NCBI RefSeq assembly: GCF_035934735.1
Contig: NZ_CP142396.1
Span: 1,240,001 to 1,304,000, forward strand
Length of the DNA stretch: 64,000 bases
Source: Sedimentibacter sp. MB31-C6
GTDB taxonomy: Bacteria; Bacillota; Clostridia; Tissierellales; Sedimentibacteraceae
Direction: 5' to 3'
The position numbers were made by a program, and so were the translations under genes. Below the pieces are notes generated by a model that did no database searches, was not told the DNA's origin, and saw only the letters and a list, made by a program, of their open reading frames with translations. This document shows positions 9,458-18,224 of this stretch, one piece after another. The stretch's first letter is position 1. Every line of letters starts with the position of its first letter.

Positions 9458-10348
9458 ATGAATAAAACAAGAGGATTAATTTATGCAATTTTAGCTGGTT
9501 TTATTTACGGATTTACTCCTATTTTAGGAAAATTATCATATATGGAGGGAAGCAACACATTATCACTAACCTTTTATAGAAGTCTTCTTTCCATTCCTTT
9601 TATTTTTGGAATTTTAAAATATAAGAAAATTCCCCTAGCTATAACAAAGCAAGAAATTAAAAAATTAGCTATCTTAAGTTCCCTTGGCCCTTCTTTGACT
9701 GCTATCACACTTTATGGTGCCTATAATTATATATCTGTAGGAATGACTACTACAATACATTATATTTATCCTGTTTTAGTTGCTGCCGTTTCTGTGATTA
9801 TATTTAAAGAGAAAATAAGTAAAGAAAAAATATTAGCCTTAGTTCTATCAACTATTGGAGTTGCTTTATTTTTCGAAGGCAGCTTTAGTATAGTAGGAGT
9901 AATATTGGCATTATTGTCAGGGGTAATATATGGCGCTCACCTTCTTTACATTGATAAAAGTGGTTTAAATGCGATGTATCCATTTAAAATTTCTTTATTC
10001 CTTAGCGCCTTTGCATCAATATATATGTTTATATTTGGAATGATATCTAAAACCTTAGTATTTAATATGTCTATAAAAGGTTGGATATACACACTCTTAG
10101 TTTCAATCTTTGTTTCTGTATTAGCTAATACATTAATCACTATGGCTGTAAAAAATGTTGGTCCTACTGTAACTGCAATTGTTGGAATGTTCGAACCTAT
10201 TACAAGCATATTATTAGGTATTATTTTATTAAATGAACCCTTTACATTAAAAAACATATTTGCATGCATTCTCATATTAACAGGAGTATTAATAATAACA
10301 TTAATAAAAGAAGAAAAAGTTAAAATAAAAACAGTTCTTTCAAAATAA
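9458..10348 (+). CDS. EamA/DMT-family transporter
   Basis: A 296-residue inner-membrane protein with about ten hydrophobic helices arranged as two five-helix EamA repeats. The first repeat starts with RGLIYAILAGFIYGFTPI, and the second ends with the conserved MFEPITSILLGIILLNE. This is the drug/metabolite transporter superfamily; many members export amino acids or metabolites, and the substrate cannot be read from sequence. GAAAAGAAGGGG precedes the ATG. The stop is followed at once by a strong hairpin shared with the convergent lar operon. Confidence 0.9.
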   Translation: MNKTRGLIYAILAGFIYGFTPILGKLSYMEGSNTLSLTFYRSLLSIPFIFGILKYKKIPLAITKQEIKKLAILSSLGPSLTAITLYGAYNYISVGMTTTIHYIYPVLVAAVSVIIFKEKISKEKILALVLSTIGVALFFEGSFSIVGVILALLSGVIYGAHLLYIDKSGLNAMYPFKISLFLSAFASIYMFIFGMISKTLVFNMSIKGWIYTLLVSIFVSVLANTLITMAVKNVGPTVTAIVGMFEPITSILLGIILLNEPFTLKNIFACILILTGVLIITLIKEEKVKIKTVLSK

Positions 10349-10382
10349 GATGCACTGGGGACTGTCCCCAGTGCATCTTTTT
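10347..10382. terminator. Palindromic bidirectional terminator (GGGGACTGTCCCC type)
   Basis: A perfect 13-bp stem (10349-10361 and 10365-10377, arms GATGCACTGGGGA and its complement) with a three-base loop, followed by T-rich sequence. It lies directly between the EamA stop and the larC stop and probably ends both transcripts. Its GC content is far above the surroundings, and GGGGACTGTCCCC palindromes of this type recur between genes in many Firmicutes. Confidence 0.85.
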
Positions 10383-10809
10383 AGATGTTTTTAATTTCGT
10401 CATAAACTTCTTTTATTGATACCTTGTTTTTAAGTGCTGCTTTTTTTATATCTTCATATTCCCCGCTGAATTTTATGATATCTCCATATACAACCTTTTT
10501 TACGTGAATATCACCAAATTTAGTGTTTATAAGTTCGTAACTTCTTTCCATAGTAGTTCTCTCAACTTTAATTTTTCTTATACCAATAGTTGAGGTTTCC
10601 GAAAGCACTATTCTTTCTAAAGTATCTAAATCTTCTTCTTGAGCTATAAATGTAAGTTTAACAGCAGGACGACATTTCTTCATGTAAATAGGAGTAAAGA
10701 AAACATCTAATGCCCCAGCTTCAAATAATCTTTCCATAACATACCCCAACACCTCTCCAGTTGTATCATCTATATTTGTTTCTGCTAATATTATACTGTT
10801 TAAATTAGT
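10381..10809 (-). CDS. larC: LarC C-terminal part (LarC2), reached by -1 frameshift
   Basis: C-terminal half of the nickel-pincer cofactor nickel-insertion protein LarC, in the -1 frame relative to larC1. Read from the slip site it gives LNSIILAETNIDDTTGEV followed by LGYVMERLFEAGALDVFFTPI, which is the conserved junction region of full-length LarC. The first start-like codon (GTG at 10752) falls inside this conserved region, so independent initiation there would remove essential residues. GAGAG lies just before that GTG, but the spacing is poor. The most economical reading is a LarC1-LarC2 fusion made by frameshifting at 10809-10818. A sequencing error in the homopolymer or a decayed gene are alternatives. 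Confidence 0.85.
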   Translation of the reverse strand, partial: TNLNSIILAETNIDDTTGEVLGYVMERLFEAGALDVFFTPIYMKKCRPAVKLTFIAQEEDLDTLERIVLSETSTIGIRKIKVERTTMERSYELINTKFGDIHVKKVVYGDIIKFSGEYEDIKKAALKNKVSIKEVYDEIKNI

Positions 10810-11561
10810 TTTTTTTTTCCTAAAACAAGCCTTAATAAATTAGGAATTTCAAAGTCTTTATAACCTGCACCATAACCTATCTTATCAATTTCCATATCTG
10901 GTTGTTCACTATATTCTTGTGCTAATGCTGCAACAATTGCAGCTCCCGTAGGTGTTACAAGTTCTCCTTGAATACCCTTAGAATATATTGGAATACTAGC
11001 ATTCTTAATAATTTCTAAAGTTGCTGGCGCTGGTACTGGCATTAATCCATGCTGACATTTTACAAATCCTGTTCCTACATGAAGCTTTGAAGCAACTACT
11101 TTTTCTATATTTAACATATCAATACAAATAGCAGTTCCTATAATATCTACAATTGAATCAATAGCCCCTACTTCATGAAAGTGAACTTGGTCAATAGGTT
11201 TTCCATGAACTTTAGATTCAGCTTCTGCTACATAAATAAATATTTTTTTTGAGAGCTTTTTAACTTTATCAGAAAGTTGGCTATCCTCAATAATTTTCTC
11301 AATATCATGTAAATTTCTATGTTCATGTGAATGGTGATGGTGATGTTCATGTGAATGATGCTCATCTTCTAATATTACATCAAAATAAGTACCTTCAATA
11401 CCATTTTTAACTTTTTTACTTACTTCTATGTGATACCCTTCTACATTTAATTTTTTCAACTCATTAATTAGTTCATTTTCATTTATACCTAAATCCAATA
11501 AACCACCTATTATCATATTTCCGCTTATACCAGAAAAACAATCCATATATAATATATTCAT
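10800..11561 (-). CDS. larC: LarC N-terminal part (LarC1), nickel insertion for NPN cofactor
   Basis: LarC uses CTP to insert nickel into pyridinium-3,5-bisthiocarboxylic acid mononucleotide, giving the nickel-pincer (NPN) cofactor of LarA-type enzymes. The 253-residue product starts MNILYMDCFSGISGNMIIGGL, the family signature, and has a His-rich segment (HSHEHHHHHSHEH) near residues 74-86 suited to nickel binding, then QVHFHEVGAIDSI and TPTGAAI. The start at 11561 has GGAG 9 bp upstream and lies 1 bp after the larB stop; a second ATG 15 bp upstream is less likely. The frame ends just after an A10 run, and the C-terminal half continues in the -1 frame. Confidence 0.93.
   Translation of the reverse strand: MNILYMDCFSGISGNMIIGGLLDLGINENELINELKKLNVEGYHIEVSKKVKNGIEGTYFDVILEDEHHSHEHHHHHSHEHRNLHDIEKIIEDSQLSDKVKKLSKKIFIYVAEAESKVHGKPIDQVHFHEVGAIDSIVDIIGTAICIDMLNIEKVVASKLHVGTGFVKCQHGLMPVPAPATLEIIKNASIPIYSKGIQGELVTPTGAAIVAALAQEYSEQPDMEIDKIGYGAGYKDFEIPNLLRLVLGKKKLI
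10807..10818 (-). other. Candidate programmed frameshift (slippery A10) site in larC
   Basis: The minus strand has a run of ten A (10818-10809) read as GGA AAA AAA AAA CTA ATT TAA in the larC1 frame, so the stop comes two codons after the run. Slipping back one base continues directly into LarC2. The run satisfies the X XXY YYZ slippery rule and would also permit polymerase slippage. Lactobacillus plantarum larC is likewise known to be split and expressed by frameshifting. Confidence 0.7.
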
Positions 11562-11562
11562 T

Positions 11563-12327
11563 TTATTTTTCTCCATTCATTTTATTTATCATACTCGCTA
11601 GATATCCCGCACCAAATCCATTATCTATATTTACAACACTAGTCCCTGATGCACAGGAGTTCAGCATTGCTAACAATGCAGCTACTCCATTAAAACTAGC
11701 TCCATAACCAACGCTTGTAGGAACTGCTATAACTGGTACGTCAACAAGACCTCCAACAACACTGGCTATTGCTCCTTCCATTCCAGCTGCAGCAATTATT
11801 ACATTGGCAGAATAAATAACATCCAATTTAGAAAGTAATCTATGGATACCTGCTACACCAACATCGTAAAGCCTTTCAACTTTATTCCCTAAAACTTCTG
11901 CAGTTATAGCTGCTTCTTCTGCAACAGGAATATCTGCGGTGCCTCCAGTAACCACTAATATAGAATTTTCAGTTTTTATTATTTCTTTTCTTCTTATTAT
12001 TATGATTCTCGCTAAATCATAATATATTGCATTATCTGTAATTTTACAAACACTTTCATAAACTTCCTTGCTGGCTCTTGTTGCTAAAATATTATTTTCA
12101 CCCATAGCTAACATCTTAGTAATAATTCCGTTAATATGGTCTAGTGACTTGCCTTGACAAAATATTACCTCTGGATATCCATTACGTAAAGCTCTATGGT
12201 TATCAATTTTAGCGTAGTTGCCTATTTCAGTAAAAGGTAATTCTTTAAGTTTTTCTACAGCTGTATCAATTGTTACTTCCTCATTCTTTACTTTATTCAA
12301 TAATTCTTTTAAATCATTTTTATTCAT
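11563..12327 (-). CDS. larB: LarB, NPN cofactor precursor carboxylase/hydrolase
   Basis: LarB carboxylates nicotinic acid adenine dinucleotide at C5 and releases AMP to give pyridinium-3,5-biscarboxylic acid mononucleotide, the first step of NPN synthesis. The 254-residue protein has an N-terminal part with FTEIGNYAKIDNHRALRNG and EVIFCQGK, and a C-terminal half resembling PurE (TGGTADIPVAEEAA, DVGVAGIHRL, AAGMEGAIASVVGGLV, VPTSVGYGA). The start ATG overlaps the larE stop (TAATG), implying coupled translation; an ATG 15 bp upstream is the alternative. It sits between larE and larC in the operon. Confidence 0.95.
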   Translation of the reverse strand: MNKNDLKELLNKVKNEEVTIDTAVEKLKELPFTEIGNYAKIDNHRALRNGYPEVIFCQGKSLDHINGIITKMLAMGENNILATRASKEVYESVCKITDNAIYYDLARIIIIRRKEIIKTENSILVVTGGTADIPVAEEAAITAEVLGNKVERLYDVGVAGIHRLLSKLDVIYSANVIIAAAGMEGAIASVVGGLVDVPVIAVPTSVGYGASFNGVAALLAMLNSCASGTSVVNIDNGFGAGYLASMINKMNGEK

Positions 12328-13154
12328 TATTTTATATCCCACTCATCCTTAGTATTTTGACTTACTTCTTCATTCATACTTCCAATTCTGTAACCTTGTA
12401 AATCCAAAGTGACAAAATTAAATCCTTCTTTCTTAAAGAATTCAACTACAGTTTCCCTATCCTTTTCTATAAATTTAGCAAAGTCCTCTTTTTTCAATTC
12501 TATTCTTGCTAAATTTCCATGGTATCTCACTCTAAAACCAGTATATCCTAAATCAAGGAGATAATTTTCACAATTTTCTACCATTTTTAAATTTTCCTTA
12601 GTAATTCGTGTACCATAGGGAATTCTAGATGCAAGGCAAGCCATAGAAGGCTTATTCCAAGTTGGGACATTTAGTTTTTTAGAAAGAACACGTATCTCTT
12701 CCTTGCTTAGTCCTGCTTCTTTTAAAGGACTCCTTACACCAAGTTCTTTAAGTGCTTTCATGCCAGGCCTAAAATCTGAAGTATCATCAGCATTAGTTCC
12801 ATCGACAACAAATTTATATCCATTTTTGTTTGCTGTATCTATAATTAATGTAAAAACAGCTTTCTTACAATGATAACATCTGTCTGGTTCATTTGCTACT
12901 AAACCTTTTATTCCCCATTCATCACCAATAATTGGAATAAACTTAGCCTTTAATATTTTAGCCAATTCTTCAGTTTCATAAGTATCTCTTTTAGGATACA
13001 TTGATGCACTTACATTTATTCCAACTGCATTCTCATTTAATACTTCATTTGCAACAGCTAACAAAAATGTGCTATCAACCCCTCCTGAAAATGCTACTGC
13101 AACACTACCCATCTCTTTAAGTATACTTCTTAATTTATTATATTTTTGTTCCAT
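12327..13154 (-). CDS. larE: LarE, ATP-dependent sulfur transferase for NPN cofactor
   Basis: LarE adenylylates the LarB product and replaces two carboxylate oxygens with sulfur. The 275-residue protein has the PP-loop SGGVDSTF at residues 23-30. Three cysteines stand out: Cys93 and Cys96 in DRCYHCKK, and Cys173 in SMACLASRIPYG. Cys173 corresponds to the sacrificial cysteine of the Lactobacillus enzyme; a three-cysteine set is the pattern I associate with [4Fe-4S]-type LarE, which can act catalytically. The start at 13154 was chosen for GAGGAG 7 bp upstream; an in-frame TTG at 13169 overlaps that site. It lies 16 bp after the ABC ATPase gene. Confidence 0.95.
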   Translation of the reverse strand: MEQKYNKLRSILKEMGSVAVAFSGGVDSTFLLAVANEVLNENAVGINVSASMYPKRDTYETEELAKILKAKFIPIIGDEWGIKGLVANEPDRCYHCKKAVFTLIIDTANKNGYKFVVDGTNADDTSDFRPGMKALKELGVRSPLKEAGLSKEEIRVLSKKLNVPTWNKPSMACLASRIPYGTRITKENLKMVENCENYLLDLGYTGFRVRYHGNLARIELKKEDFAKFIEKDRETVVEFFKKEGFNFVTLDLQGYRIGSMNEEVSQNTKDEWDIK

Positions 13155-13170
13155 TATTATACTCCTCAAA

Positions 13171-13782
13171 TTATATATTATTGATTTCTTCTAAGTTTAC
13201 TACTCTTGTACATACTCTGCTTGCCAATGCTTTATTATGTGTTATTATAACCATTCCAATATTTCTTTCTTCACATATTTTTATTAAAGAATTCCAAATT
13301 TGTGCTTGAGTTATTCCATCAAGCATTGCAGTTATTTCATCAGCAATTATAAATTTGGTATCCTTTGTTATAGATCTTGCTATTGAAAACCTTTGAAGTT
13401 CTCCTCCAGACAACTCATTAGGATACCTGTCTAGCCATATATCCTTGATACCTAAAATTTCTATAAGATTATAATTTATCTTACCATTTTCTGTTAAAGC
13501 TTTTTTCATTCTCCACCTAGGATTAATAGTTTCCTCTGGATGTTGATATATTAACTGAACAGGATAATATTCTTTATTTAAAATTTCTTTGTTATCTATA
13601 ACAACATTACCCCATGATGGCATAACATGACCTGCCAATATTTTTGCAAATGTACTTTTTCCATAACCACTTTTTGCTACTAATCCAACTCTTTCATTTG
13701 AAGATACGTTAAAATCCACATTTTTCAAAATATATGAACTATTGTTATATTTAAACCCAATATTTTTAGCTTCTAAAATCAT
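13171..13782 (-). CDS. ABC importer ATP-binding protein 2 (Opp/Nik type)
   Basis: A 203-residue ABC ATPase with Walker A AKSGYGKSTF, signature LSGGELQRFS and Walker B KFIIADE followed by ITAML. It is short for the DppF/NikE family and lacks the C-terminal extension that oligopeptide ATPases usually carry. The gene overlaps the end of the first ATPase by 17 bp and is followed 16 bp later by larE. By position it forms the second half of the ATPase pair for the upstream permeases. Nickel is the suggested substrate because of the linked lar genes; peptide transport cannot be excluded. Confidence 0.9.
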   Translation of the reverse strand: MILEAKNIGFKYNNSSYILKNVDFNVSSNERVGLVAKSGYGKSTFAKILAGHVMPSWGNVVIDNKEILNKEYYPVQLIYQHPEETINPRWRMKKALTENGKINYNLIEILGIKDIWLDRYPNELSGGELQRFSIARSITKDTKFIIADEITAMLDGITQAQIWNSLIKICEERNIGMVIITHNKALASRVCTRVVNLEEINNI

Positions 13783-14695
13783 AATTACATTTCACCATTT
13801 CATCATTAAATTTCTTCATTTCTACATTTTTATCACAAATTGCTTCTTTATAATTACATCTATCCCGGAAAACACATCCTATATCACCTATTTTAGGTAT
13901 AGGCTGGTAACCTTCTATTGGCTTAAATTCATTTGTAGGTAAAGAATTATATAATGCTTTCGTATATGGATGCCTTAAGTAACTTACACCTTTATTAAAA
14001 TATTTAGCTTTAGTCAACTCAAGTATATGTCCTGCATAAAATATAGCGATCTTATCTGAATAATTAATAGCTAACTCTATATCATGGGTTATTAATACAA
14101 CTGCTTTATTTTCGTCTGCAAAATTTCTAAAATAGTTCATTGTCTTTTTAGCAGATTCAACATCAAGTCCTGGAGTAGGTTCATCGGCTATTATGAGACT
14201 CGGCTCTTTTATAACAGAAGTAGAAATTAAAACCCTCCTTGCCATGCCACCAGATAGTTGAAATGGGTATAACTTTTCAGAATTTTCACATAAATCATAT
14301 TGTTCAAATATTTTACGTTGTTTTTTCTTAATTTCCTTATCATTTATGCAGTTTCTAACCTGTTTACCAACTTTTATTAATGGATCAAGGCATGAAATGC
14401 TCTGTGGAATATATGTTATTTCATTCCCTCTTAAAGATTTCAATAATTTTGAATCAATTAATTTACCATCATAATATATATCACCATCTACTACTGCGTT
14501 ACTAGGAAGTAATCCTAATATTGCTTCTGCTAATATACTCTTTCCACTTCCGCTAGCTCCTACTATAGTTAATATTTCCCCTGGATATGCCATTATAGAT
14601 AAATCATTTATAACTAAATTATCATTATTTTTTATTTTATTATCATTCATTCTAAATTGAACTGATAGATTATTTATTTCTAATAAAGGTTTCAT
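13766..14695 (-). CDS. ABC importer ATP-binding protein 1 (DppD/NikD type)
   Basis: A 309-residue ATPase. Walker A is GASGSGKSIL, the signature is LSGGMARRV, and Walker B LIIADEPTPGLD is followed by the switch LITHD. The C-terminus carries the cysteine-rich oligopeptide/nickel ATPase tail (YLRHPYTKALYNSLP, then CVFRDRCNYKEAICD), which in relatives holds an iron-sulfur cluster or a structural metal. It is part of a five-gene importer running from the binding protein at 18152 to the second ATPase, immediately followed by larE, larB and larC. Confidence 0.93.
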   Translation of the reverse strand: MKPLLEINNLSVQFRMNDNKIKNNDNLVINDLSIMAYPGEILTIVGASGSGKSILAEAILGLLPSNAVVDGDIYYDGKLIDSKLLKSLRGNEITYIPQSISCLDPLIKVGKQVRNCINDKEIKKKQRKIFEQYDLCENSEKLYPFQLSGGMARRVLISTSVIKEPSLIIADEPTPGLDVESAKKTMNYFRNFADENKAVVLITHDIELAINYSDKIAIFYAGHILELTKAKYFNKGVSYLRHPYTKALYNSLPTNEFKPIEGYQPIPKIGDIGCVFRDRCNYKEAICDKNVEMKKFNDEMVKCNYDFRS

Positions 14696-14725
14696 ATTTT
14701 TCTTCCAATCTATTTAAAACTTTAC

Positions 14726-15541
14726 TCACTCTCTTGCAAAATTAGGATTAAGAAGTAAAGATAAATTTTCTCCTAATTTGTTTATAAGTAATACTAAAAC
14801 TACTAATGAAAGGCCAGGAAAAAAAGCTAAATGCCACATCCCCGTAACTAAATATTTCATACTTTCAGATAATATAATACCTATTGCTGCTGACTCTGGA
14901 GATAATCCAAACCCTAAAAATGTTACAGATGCCTCATGAAGTATAGCATGTGGAAACATTAATATAAGCCCTACAATAAACTGAGGAAAAACTATAGGAA
15001 TCATGTGATTTTTAAAAATATACCAACCATTTTTACCAAACCTTCTAGATACCATTACATATTTATTGCTTCTAACCTGTAATACTTCACTACGAACTAT
15101 TCGTGCAAGTGATGTCCAATGAGTTACCGCAACACCAATCAATACACCTTTTGCACCTCTACCGCTTAATACAGAAATTAATATTATCAAAATAATATGA
15201 GGTATTCCCATAACTAAGTCAATTGCTAATTTCGCTATAAAGTCAACCCATTTTGGCATAGTCCCTGCCAATCCACCTATTATCAATGCAATTATACAAC
15301 TAATTAATGATGCAATGGACCCTATAACTAAACTATTTCTTAAACCTTTTATAGTCCTTAAAAACATATCTCTTCCTAACCAATCAGTACCAAAGGGATG
15401 TTCTAAAGAAGGTAATTGATTTTTAATTTCAAACTGAGGTGACAACATTTCATCTGTAATTAAAGTTCCAAAAACCATTATTAATATTATAATAACTAAT
15501 ATTGCAATAAGTATAACTTTACTTTTATCTCTCCTGCCCAA
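14726..15541 (-). CDS. ABC importer permease 2 (DppC/NikC type)
   Basis: A 271-residue membrane protein with about six helices. HPFGTDWLGRDMFLR near the N-terminus is the DppC/NikC hallmark, and the EAA loop appears near the end of the core (HEASVTFLGFGLSPESAAIG). Initiation is predicted at TTG 15541 with GGAG 9 bp upstream, inside the end of the preceding permease gene; no ATG fits better. It pairs with the DppB-type permease encoded just before it. Confidence 0.93.
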   Translation of the reverse strand: MGRRDKSKVILIAILVIIILIMVFGTLITDEMLSPQFEIKNQLPSLEHPFGTDWLGRDMFLRTIKGLRNSLVIGSIASLISCIIALIIGGLAGTMPKWVDFIAKLAIDLVMGIPHIILIILISVLSGRGAKGVLIGVAVTHWTSLARIVRSEVLQVRSNKYVMVSRRFGKNGWYIFKNHMIPIVFPQFIVGLILMFPHAILHEASVTFLGFGLSPESAAIGIILSESMKYLVTGMWHLAFFPGLSLVVLVLLINKLGENLSLLLNPNFARE

Positions 15542-16519
15542 TTAAACTTTCTCCTCTCTAATCATAGGGTTCATAGCCATATGAAGAATGTCTGCAATAA
15601 AGTTTCCCATAAATACAAATATAGCCGTTATAATCGTAGTACCTAATAATAAAGGTATATCGCCCCCTAATCCTGCCTGTACAACTGTAGAGCCAAGTCC
15701 AGGATAAGAAAAAACACTTTCTGCCAATACACTGCCACCAAATATTTCACTAAATGATCCAAACTGTATAGTAACTGCAGGCAAAACAGTATTTTTAAAA
15801 ATATGATTCTTAAGGATAGATTTCTCACTTTCTCCCTTAGCTATAGCAAATAAAACATAATCACTTTGTAAAACTTCTATAGTTTTGCTTCTTGTATGCA
15901 TAGCAACATTAGGAACAAAAACCAAAGTTAAAGTAATTATAGGTAGAATTGCATGATGTATTTTTTCAAGAATATTAATATTATCAGTGGTTATCCCAAT
16001 TGGAACACTAAATCCAATAGGAAAAATTTTAAGTTTCACTGAAAATATTATGAGCATAAGTATCCCAACCCAAAATGTTGGTGTAGCTGTAAAAGTTATA
16101 CAAATTGATTTAATTATTTTATCTAAAAGTGAATCTCTGTATTTACCCATTATTAAACCTAAAATATATCCCACCATACCTGAAAGTATAAAGGCAGATA
16201 CCATTAAAAATAATGAATTAATTGCCCTTTCACTAATAACAGAAATAACACTTTTTCTAAAAATAAGTGATTCACCTAAATCACCTTTAAGTAAATTAGA
16301 TGACCAATTTATAAATCTATCGATTTTTGATTCGTCTAAACCCCAATACTTTTCAATTTCTCCTCTTTGCTCTATACTAACTGTATTGCCTTCCCCAATA
16401 TATTGTCTTATAGGGTCAATTGGGGAATTTACTACCAAAGTAAAGGTTACAATACAAACTAAAATAATCAAAATAATCATTCTGGAGAAATTAAACATTA
16501 TATATTTAAAAATATTCAT
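15542..16519 (-). CDS. ABC importer permease 1 (DppB/NikB type)
   Basis: A 325-residue membrane protein with about six helices and the DppB/NikB features: an N-terminal helix followed by a proline-rich external stretch (NSPIDPIRQYIG), YWGLDESKIDRFINW and LKGDLGESL. The EAA region (AIAKGESEKSILKNHIFKN) and the GGSVLAESVFSYPGLG motif follow. It abuts the second permease gene directly. The order binding protein, permease, permease, ATPase, ATPase is that of nik/dpp operons. Confidence 0.93.
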   Translation of the reverse strand: MNIFKYIMFNFSRMIILIILVCIVTFTLVVNSPIDPIRQYIGEGNTVSIEQRGEIEKYWGLDESKIDRFINWSSNLLKGDLGESLIFRKSVISVISERAINSLFLMVSAFILSGMVGYILGLIMGKYRDSLLDKIIKSICITFTATPTFWVGILMLIIFSVKLKIFPIGFSVPIGITTDNINILEKIHHAILPIITLTLVFVPNVAMHTRSKTIEVLQSDYVLFAIAKGESEKSILKNHIFKNTVLPAVTIQFGSFSEIFGGSVLAESVFSYPGLGSTVVQAGLGGDIPLLLGTTIITAIFVFMGNFIADILHMAMNPMIREEKV

Positions 16520-16541
16520 CTGATTTTCCTATCTTTATCTT

Positions 16542-18152
16542 TTACTTAATCCATTTCCAATCTCTTAAGTTTGCAGCAAGAGGCCATGCATGTCCATGAG
16601 GATGTATTTTTTGCTGTCCAACATCTAATCCCTCTTTTACATAATATAGATGGTCTATATTTACTAACCAAACCCATGGACTATCTCCAAGGGTTGATGT
16701 TCCTGTTTTTCCATCCCACTGCGCCTTTTTCCACAATTCATTAGCAATTTGTGAATCAGTTGCTTCTAATGCCTGTTCCATATATTTATCAACAATTTCA
16801 TTAGAATAATTCTCTGGATTATAATAATCTACGCCTTTATTACTGCTGTGATAAAGCATATATGTTTCCATTGGAGTTTGATCACCCCAACCCATTAATA
16901 CTGGATCTCTAAACATACGCTTATCTATTTCATCCCAACTTAAACCTTCAACTTTTATAGATATTCCTAAATCTTTAGCTTGATTCGAAGCAGACAATGC
17001 GAGACCTTGTCTAACAGAATCTCCAGCTGCATAAATCAAAGAAAATTCAGCCTTTAATCCATCTTTTTCTCTTATACCGTCATTATCGCTATCAATCCAA
17101 CCAGTTTCTTCTAATATACTTTTAGCATTCTCTATATCATATTCAATTATACAATCCTCATTAAACCAAGGCATATTGTCAGCCTCTGTATAAGCAGGAA
17201 CACCATATCCACTTAATACATCCTCAATCATTTTATTTCTATCGAGCCCATAAGATAATGCTCTTCTTATTGCTATATCAGATGTAACATCATTCCCTAT
17301 AGGATAACCTTCTGAAGTAGTTTTTCCCTCATTAGAAACCACAGGAAGTGTTATACCTCTATTATCAATAGTATCTGCACTATATAAATTCATTCCTTCA
17401 ATTTCAACACTTGACATGCTTGGAACTGTCATTGCTACATCTAAAGTACCTGTCTGTGCTGCTATTAAAGCTGCATCTTCTTCCATAAATAAAATAACTA
17501 CCTTTTTCATTTCAGGGATATTTCCATAATACTCTTCATTAGCCTCAAGTATTAATTGCTGGCCTTTGTCCCATTGAACAAATTTAAAAGGTCCACTACC
17601 AATTGGTTTTTCACCGTATTCATTATCGTATACATGTTCTGGAACAATTCCAGTTTTAGATATACTATAAATAAAAGCTGACTCTGGTCTTGATAATTTC
17701 ATTTGTACAGTAAATTCATCCACCGCCTTTATTGATTCCAACACAGTTAAATCAACAATAGAATTACTTTCTTTTGCCTTTTCATATGTAAACACTACAT
17801 CATCGGCAGTTACTAATTCTCCATCTGTAAAATAAGCATTTTCTCTTAAATTAAATGTCCAAGTTAAAGAGTCATCACTTATAGTATAATCAGTTGCCAA
17901 ATCCCCTACGATTTCCATATTCGCATTTGTTTCAACTAAAGTGCTTTGAATTAATGGACTACCATACCTTCCCCAACCATATATTGGGTTAAACCCTTCA
18001 TCAGGTTCAGATCCTATGGCCATAACTATTGTATCTTTAGTTTCATTTTCATTTACAACATTAGTTAAATCACCACTATCATTACTACAACTAGTAACTG
18101 ATAATAGCATTATCACAATAGATAAAATTAATAACAAATAGTTCTTTTTCAT
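16542..18152 (-). CDS. Extracellular solute-binding lipoprotein, family 5 (probable nickel)
   Basis: A 536-residue substrate-binding lipoprotein. The start at 18152 follows AGGGAGGG; an in-frame start 24 bp upstream lies in the leader. The signal peptide ends in the lipobox SVTSC (Cys22). Family 5 features include GSGPFKFVQWDKGQQL, IRRALSYGLDRNKM and ETGWIDSDNDGIREKDG. The C-terminus has HPHGHAW, a histidine cluster that could ligate metal. The operon continues through two permeases and two ATPases into larEBC, which argues for nickel or a nickel chelate as cargo; peptides are the main alternative. Expression is probably controlled by the leader hairpin at 18181-18224. Confidence 0.88.
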   Translation of the reverse strand: MKKNYLLLILSIVIMLLSVTSCSNDSGDLTNVVNENETKDTIVMAIGSEPDEGFNPIYGWGRYGSPLIQSTLVETNANMEIVGDLATDYTISDDSLTWTFNLRENAYFTDGELVTADDVVFTYEKAKESNSIVDLTVLESIKAVDEFTVQMKLSRPESAFIYSISKTGIVPEHVYDNEYGEKPIGSGPFKFVQWDKGQQLILEANEEYYGNIPEMKKVVILFMEEDAALIAAQTGTLDVAMTVPSMSSVEIEGMNLYSADTIDNRGITLPVVSNEGKTTSEGYPIGNDVTSDIAIRRALSYGLDRNKMIEDVLSGYGVPAYTEADNMPWFNEDCIIEYDIENAKSILEETGWIDSDNDGIREKDGLKAEFSLIYAAGDSVRQGLALSASNQAKDLGISIKVEGLSWDEIDKRMFRDPVLMGWGDQTPMETYMLYHSSNKGVDYYNPENYSNEIVDKYMEQALEATDSQIANELWKKAQWDGKTGTSTLGDSPWVWLVNIDHLYYVKEGLDVGQQKIHPHGHAWPLAANLRDWKWIK

Positions 18153-18173
18153 ATTACCCTCCCTTACATAAAA

Positions 18174-18224
18174 CAAAAAACCACAAAGATATCACTTATT
18201 CTTAAGTGACTGAAACCTTCGTGG
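18174..18224 (-). terminator. Leader terminator/attenuator before the importer-lar operon
   Basis: Minus-strand CCACGAAG (18224-18217) pairs, with one G-U, with CTTTGTGG (18188-18181). A second stem (TCACTTA/TAAGTGA) is nested inside, and the U-tract is at 18180-18174. The hairpin ends only 22 bp before the binding-protein ATG, leaving no room for a promoter between, so it must be read through to express the operon. Confidence 0.75.

Follow-up and report, generated by a model that had tools for sequence, protein, structure and literature searches.

Probable one-base slippage at a ten-adenine run in the split larC gene of Sedimentibacter sp. MB31-C6

The larC gene of Sedimentibacter sp. MB31-C6 is divided between two reading frames that meet at a run of ten adenines (A10). 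Judging from the sequence and its relatives, it is highly probable that the two frames form a single gene, which would give LarC1 when decoded without a shift and full-length LarC after a one-base slip on A10. The window analysed is a stretch of 64,000 nucleotides (contig NZ_CP142396.1, positions 1,240,001 to 1,304,000), and coordinates are those of the window unless stated otherwise. On the minus strand, the zero frame (larC1, 11561..10800) encodes the LarC N-terminal domain, 253 aa from the ATG at 11561, and its 3' end reads GTT TTA GGA AAA AAA AAA CTA ATT TAA. The run occupies 10809..10818 (T10 on the plus strand); it is made of three AAA codons and the wobble A of the Gly codon GGA, and holds two overlapping zero-frame A_AAA_AAA heptamers. 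The TAA that ends LarC1 (10802-10800) comes two codons past A10, as the first-pass annotation of this DNA had reported from the letters. The same annotation had proposed that slipping back one base joins larC1 to the rest of LarC, and the minus-strand reading agrees: the -1 frame is open over 10381..10839, reads KKKTNLNSIILAETNIDDTTGEV beyond the run, ends at 10381 and carries LarC2, the C-terminal domain, which would be reached through a shift at A10. It had also placed the start of the second frame downstream of a conserved segment, and indeed the first ATG, GTG or TTG of the -1 frame is a GTG at 10752, 3' of the conserved ETNIDDTTGEV segment. No ATG, GTG or TTG lies 5' of this segment in the -1 frame of the window, so that a complete LarC2 could not begin at a usual start codon, and on this position of the GTG we rejected an internal LarC2 start in the window. 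The split of larC is confirmed as an observation.

We propose that unshifted decoding would end at the stop just past A10 and give LarC1, and that in a fraction of events a one-base slip on A10 would give full-length LarC; by arithmetic, the products are 253 aa and 393 aa long, respectively. The slip would take place either in transcription, RNA polymerase adding one extra A, or in translation, two lysyl-tRNAs shifting by -1. The -1 frame overlaps the zero-frame larC1, as in a programmed -1 frameshift gene, and the overlap contains an in-frame slippery heptamer, which is automatic for a run of this length; the homopolymer that joins the two frames also lies in the range of about nine or more A or T that goes with transcriptional slippage. 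We infer that slipping takes place in Sedimentibacter sp. MB31-C6 and that both products matter. In line with the first-pass annotation, the site may also set the proportion of LarC1 to LarC at a useful level. As to the ends of the gene, the start at 11561 (MNILYMDC) is likelier than an alternative at 11576, because S. acidaminivorans larC opens with identical residues right after the larB stop and the ORF from 11576 overlaps larB. At the opposite end, a near-perfect palindrome noticed by eye (AAGATGCACTGGGGAC/GTCCCCAGTGCATCTT, 10347-10379) lies between larC and a convergent EamA transporter gene; it looks like a two-way terminator placed directly after the LarC2 stop.

By its profile matches, the window gene is a member of the LarC family. 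LarC1 scores 241 bits against NCBIfam TIGR00299 (cut-off 90), and the -1 frame part 148 bits against NCBIfam NF052512 (cut-off 50). Pfam PF01969, formerly DUF111, is matched by both halves, by LarC1 over positions 1-236 (334 bits) and by the -1 part over positions 238-375. The LarC2 part also matches PDB 6bwo (E 3.8e-33), and in a solved full-length LarC (12bi) the counterparts of LarC1 and LarC2 are residues 18-254 and 266-401; since this alignment breaks at residues 254 and 266, the slip site encodes the stretch between the two aligned parts. Full-length LarC with the identical domain order is present in relatives. According to the accessible text of PMC11796402, LarC is the enzyme that inserts nickel, in a CTP-dependent manner, during synthesis of the nickel-pincer nucleotide.

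Pathway partners are found in the genome, larB and larE adjoining larC and a larA homolog lying elsewhere. On the minus strand, an ABC transporter, larE, larB and larC follow one another in succession. The transporter run, upstream of larE (13171..18176), is an Opp/Nik-type uptake system of two ATPases, two permeases and a solute-binding protein, recognised by profile matches and, for the last of these, by eye from the translation. The sulfur transferase of the cofactor pathway is encoded by larE (12327..13169; NCBIfam TIGR00268, 320 bits) and a further partner, upstream of larC, by larB (11563..12342; NCBIfam NF033503, 290 bits). Nickel uptake by this system is plausible, the permease scores being all below curated cut-offs. 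The EC number printed for larC2 in the accessible text of PMC7702098 looks to us like that of LarB. Three LarA-type (Lar_N) matches lie in the genome (contig positions 1590746-1591363, 2495535-2496035 and 725232-725726), one strong and two weak and none within the lar cluster; the two weak ones may use other substrates.

We then compared larC across relatives, as the first-pass annotation had advised. PF01969 was searched in 25 genomes of the genus, 27 of the family, 199 of the order, 393 of the class and 398 of the phylum (overlapping sets), and split candidates were chosen by the score or extent of the match, blind to frame and run. Order-level candidates were taken directly, a second search was made in those genomes of the class (30) and of the phylum (56) whose best scores were weaker, and the larC halves were located with a profile built from 39 full-length proteins. 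The loci named below come from genome contigs and plasmids, 6 of the 97 plasmid records with a match having been examined. Among the matches listed, 79 tandem-split larC loci were obtained, a large sample and no census; the count excludes first-half-only loci (39 in the tree set) and the duplicates L002, L014, L016, L112 and L113. LarC2 lies in the -1 frame in 71 of them (45 of 47 in one batch, then 26 of 32), in the +1 frame in 7 and in the same frame after a stop in 1. A zero-frame A_AAA_AAA is present in all 71 -1 splits. Their runs measure nine A in 52 cases, ten in 13, eleven in 1 and seven in 5, so that 66 of the 71 have an unbroken run of 9-11 A; a run of 8, or A_AAA_AAG alone as the slip site, occurs in none of the 71. 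The loci are related and these counts are not independent events, and the tree used below is a quick FastTree. S. acidaminivorans keeps the identical A10 in a matching codon context at a DNA identity of 77.7% (911 of 1172 aligned bases). Split and run are thus kept among relatives.

Two further features of the 71 loci concern the ends of the halves. On average 2.2 codons separate the run from the zero-frame stop, where the same frame further downstream would predict 7.8, a strong difference that must be read with the relatedness of the loci and a linker composition that may differ from the downstream null; so early a stop fits either selection on the end of LarC1 or a stop codon that acts by pausing. 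An ATG, GTG or TTG before the conserved LarC2 part is absent in 45 of the 71 -1 splits; a further 21 have a start codon without a Shine-Dalgarno site, and 5, four of them in the clade with seven A (A7), have both. The earlier proposal that the window larC uses slippage, by ribosome or polymerase, is supported in that the run, the -1 relation and both halves are conserved, and by the up to 39% frameshifting measured in E. coli for a DUF111 cassette (Antonov et al. 2013, PMC3711429, accessible text).

What is conserved in the -1 splits appears to be mostly a run of at least nine A, in any codon register. At its end the run stands in codon phase 0 (42 loci), 2 (27) or 1 (2), and this phase changes at least 10 times on the gene tree; all three phases occur, yet every run of nine or more also holds the ribosomal heptamer. 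At phase-2 sites the heptamer is followed by AAC (15 loci), AAG (11) or AAT (1), so that the encoded amino acid varies while the two A of that codon stay. The codon most often found ahead of a phase-0 run is GGT (17/42), giving GGT AAA AAA AAA, and the tenth A of the window is the third base of the GGA that precedes the three AAA codons shared with most relatives. Elsewhere in the larC genes AAA makes up a mean of 66% of lysine codons; codon usage alone would therefore not maintain such runs. Moreover, as the in-frame heptamer is automatic at nine or more A, it is no independent evidence for the ribosome, and it is the length that needs explaining. Long A/T runs look avoided in the window, with 3 runs of nine or more observed against about 10 (order-1) to 12 (order-3) simulated; runs of 7 are not avoided (63 observed, 46-51 simulated). 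Against a chance origin of the window A10, the comparison with S. acidaminivorans and the 79 loci carries more weight than these simulations.

Stimulatory elements were sought on both sides of the run. Downstream, a conserved hairpin was rejected, z falling below -2 in only 4 of the 71 -1 splits (mean -0.02), and none is found at the window site (z 0.20 and 1.21). Upstream, a Shine-Dalgarno-like site of -5 kcal/mol or lower within 18 nt occurs in 27 of the 71 loci; the window, whose best value is -2.6 kcal/mol, has no strong one, and an upstream Shine-Dalgarno was rejected as a general stimulator. Averaged over the 71 loci, the anti-Shine-Dalgarno energy falls to -2.8 some 7 nt before the run, a dip that lacks a background control and is equalled at 40-44 nt upstream. 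Since the window site has neither hairpin nor strong Shine-Dalgarno-like site, its slip efficiency could be low.

At runs of nine or more, the ribosomal and polymerase routes seem to us about equally plausible, with a marginal lead for the polymerase, since it is the length of the run that is conserved and the window site lacks a stimulator. A purely transcriptional slippage, by which the polymerase would add one A in a share of the mRNAs and the ribosomes would keep their frame, falls only a little short of an even prospect. The rule of nine or more A regardless of register in 66 of 71 loci, the gap at eight, and the scarcity of long runs within the window all argue for it, and so does the bare window site. 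It leaves the A7 clade in need of another route. Furthermore, ribosomes slide on three or more AAA codons, and this would mimic the length rule. RNA polymerase of E. coli, in addition, slips poorly on poly(A) of the tested lengths (PMC6260861, accessible text). Other reports, as far as their accessible texts go, favour the transcriptional route: insertions during transcription of A/T runs are mostly of a single base, which yields the -1 frame (PMC5574713), nine is the avoidance length in many bacterial genomes (PMC1088944), and a clostridial insertion sequence with nine A is reported to use it (PMC6211511). In E. coli genes, AAAAAAA is under-represented in all frames (PMC4066793, accessible text). 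The survey itself shows runs of nine or more A in any register, no conserved hairpin and switching between fused and split genes, which makes polymerase slippage at least as plausible as its ribosomal counterpart.

Ribosomal -1 frameshifting is the mechanism usually assigned to the LarC family. In its pure form, as a programmed shift on A_AAA_AAA, it has nearly as much chance of being right as of being wrong. The zero-frame heptamer in every -1 split, the strong -1 bias of the splits and, with the caveat given above, the mean anti-Shine-Dalgarno dip are consistent with it, and the A7 sites speak for it too. These five sites form a single clade, with one change on the tree; in all five a Shine-Dalgarno-like site of -6.7 to -9.3 kcal/mol lies 4-6 nt upstream and UAG follows directly after the run, and seven A are too few for polymerase slippage in an E. 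coli reporter, where none was seen under eight (PMC6260861, accessible text). However, the A7 loci amount to one clade, and in 4 of the 5 the LarC2 frame offers a GTG preceded by a Shine-Dalgarno site, which makes internal initiation an alternative there. Against a purely ribosomal mechanism, 66 of the 71 sites exceed the need of a heptamer by at least two A in every register; the two A after the heptamer persist at phase-2 sites while the codon varies, A_AAA_AAG alone is used nowhere, downstream structure is rare, and the heptamer comes automatically with the length.

A third explanation places the switch in the DNA: the run would gain or lose one A in populations, and cells would change back and forth between a split and a fused larC. 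A FastTree of 191 rows, of which the 73 fused and the 71 split in the -1 frame were counted, requires 20 or more transitions between the two states, and close relatives change from one to the other by one A. Thus near-identical plasmid genes of L. plantarum (L182, A10, split) and L. paracasei (L178, A11, fused) differ by a single A, and of 13 plasmid records 6 match over 601 bases and 7 over 602, a comparison in which only the two run lengths just given were checked base by base, the 13 include the query itself and two of the six appear to be one strain. In another near pair, L044 (fused, A10) stands next to L097 (split, A9). Among the 73 fused larC genes (94,251 nt), all 10 runs of nine or more A fall within the junction (5,898 nt), three of them coming from one tight clade (L021, L022, L026). 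Some fused genes thus carry the A-tract as well, and a one-base indel can change the default product. Most split lineages, however, have held on to nine or ten A, and with them to the split frame, through long divergence, as a freely switching tract would not, and database run lengths may contain sequencing error; switching in the DNA is therefore an unlikely account of the split, and it can coexist with slippage.

The two remaining explanations are very improbable. An assembly error or a decaying gene could be invoked because homopolymers are error-prone, and the A8 loci L087, L168 and L200, which stand beside A9 or fused relatives, may indeed be errors; but A10 recurs in a second species, 71 of 79 loci share the -1 relation and both LarC halves score far over the family cut-offs, and sequencing error was rejected as the cause of the split on the S. 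acidaminivorans A10 and the 79-locus survey. That LarC1 and LarC2 are two separate proteins, LarC2 being internally started, is just as hard to credit: the first start of the window -1 frame falls after the conserved segment, and the 45 loci without a usual start and the 21 without a Shine-Dalgarno site speak against it, while the five loci with both, the tandem genes of Niallia and Paenibacillus and the genomes with distant halves speak for it.

These exceptional architectures deserve a description. Seven +1 splits were found, five with a run, namely L087, L168 and L200 (A8), L157 (A11) and L175 (A9), and two without, in Niallia (L179) and Paenibacillus (L181). The five with a run count against the slippage proposed here; in L157 and L175, LarC2 sits in the +1 frame and is not joinable by a -1 ribosomal shift. 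In the two run-less loci larC2 starts separately, at an ATG that follows a GGAG-type site (by eye in Niallia, annotated in Paenibacillus), and in the divergent locus L139 LarC2 follows in the same frame after an in-frame stop, again without a run. The first-pass annotation had held that relatives split without a slippery run would speak against its reading. Such splits exist, in 3 of 79 loci (L179, L181, L139); their architecture is a different one, and the run-bearing class is left uncontradicted. Among the 56 re-searched genomes, at least 8 carry the halves at separate places, three of these having both on one contig; larC1 and larC2 are far apart or on different contigs in G703, G918, G781, G905, G641, G816, G876 and G903 (for example L191 with L222). 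The covalent link may thus not always be needed, and the LarC1 and LarC2 domains may act as separate subunits in such genomes. A divergent LarC-like group (L104, L107, L108, L109) has the order reversed, a LarC2-like gene lying upstream of the LarC1-like one, and in genome G009 a reversed-order pair of this kind coexists with full-length LarC. Finally, the fused larC genes L189 and L190 have open frames of 591 and 554 codons, whose length would possibly reflect an insertion, or a further domain, separating LarC1 from LarC2.

Taking these observations together, one may imagine that in larC, a widespread gene outside mobile elements, the length of a homopolymer governs the output at as many as three levels, polymerase slippage being the main one at 9-to-11-A sites, ribosomal shifting acting in the A7 clade with its Shine-Dalgarno-like stimulators, and one-base DNA indels repeatedly switching the default product between LarC1 and full-length LarC. 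We advance this combination tentatively, as a possibility that we would not expect to hold in full. If true, what is conserved would be the nine-A rule, and most members would be mislabelled as a 'ribosomal frameshift'. Whichever the level, annotation may take a split larC for two genes or a pseudogene, two larC products being annotated in the examined plasmids; since the split has here been kept as a signal, the nickel-pincer pathway of such genomes should be counted as complete. With a run-length rule this sharp among the Clostridia and other Bacillota sampled, larC lends itself well to a natural test of ribosomal versus transcriptional slippage, and the close fused/split pairs permit a direct test of any role of LarC1 alone.

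Among the closest known systems is that of the lactobacilli. In Lactobacillus plantarum, the chromosomal larC is reportedly expressed by frameshifting. The Lactiplantibacillus plantarum plasmid larC (L182) shares with the window gene the -1 relation, the A10 and a stop directly behind it (GAA AAA AAA AAC TAA). The phase of its run differs, GAA AAA AAA AAC against GGA AAA AAA AAA in the window, and it adjoins larA, whereas the Sedimentibacter larA homologs lie elsewhere in the genome. In our literature search, PMC3711429 was the sole paper found that treats frameshifting in the LarC family; the accessible texts of PMC5640608, PMC7702098 and PMC3496567 contain nothing on the larC frame. The DUF111 programmed-frameshift cluster of PMC3711429 resembles the window larC in protein family and in having two ORFs fused by a frame transition. 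It differs in that its accessible text gives no slip site for DUF111 and does not separate ribosomal from transcriptional shifting there, nor does it contain the comparison of run length, register and fused or split state made here for larC. In another family of the same study longer A-runs shift more (10% with 7 A, 40% with 9 A and 63% with 11 A; accessible text).

Two systems outside the family offer further parallels, again from the accessible texts. Thermus thermophilus dnaX resembles larC in its nine-A run, its stop close behind and its two products per gene (PMC1088944), but slippage yields the shorter product in dnaX and would yield the longer one in larC. The IS1447 transposase gene of Clostridium thermocellum has a nine-A run, in the class Clostridia, with transcriptional slippage reported (PMC6211511); it differs from larC in requiring a +1 shift and in belonging to a mobile element. 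Judged against these systems, the decoding proposed for the window larC is of an already reported kind, and what appears to be new here is the length rule that holds in all registers, the A7 clade with its Shine-Dalgarno-like sites and the repeated switching between fused and split genes.
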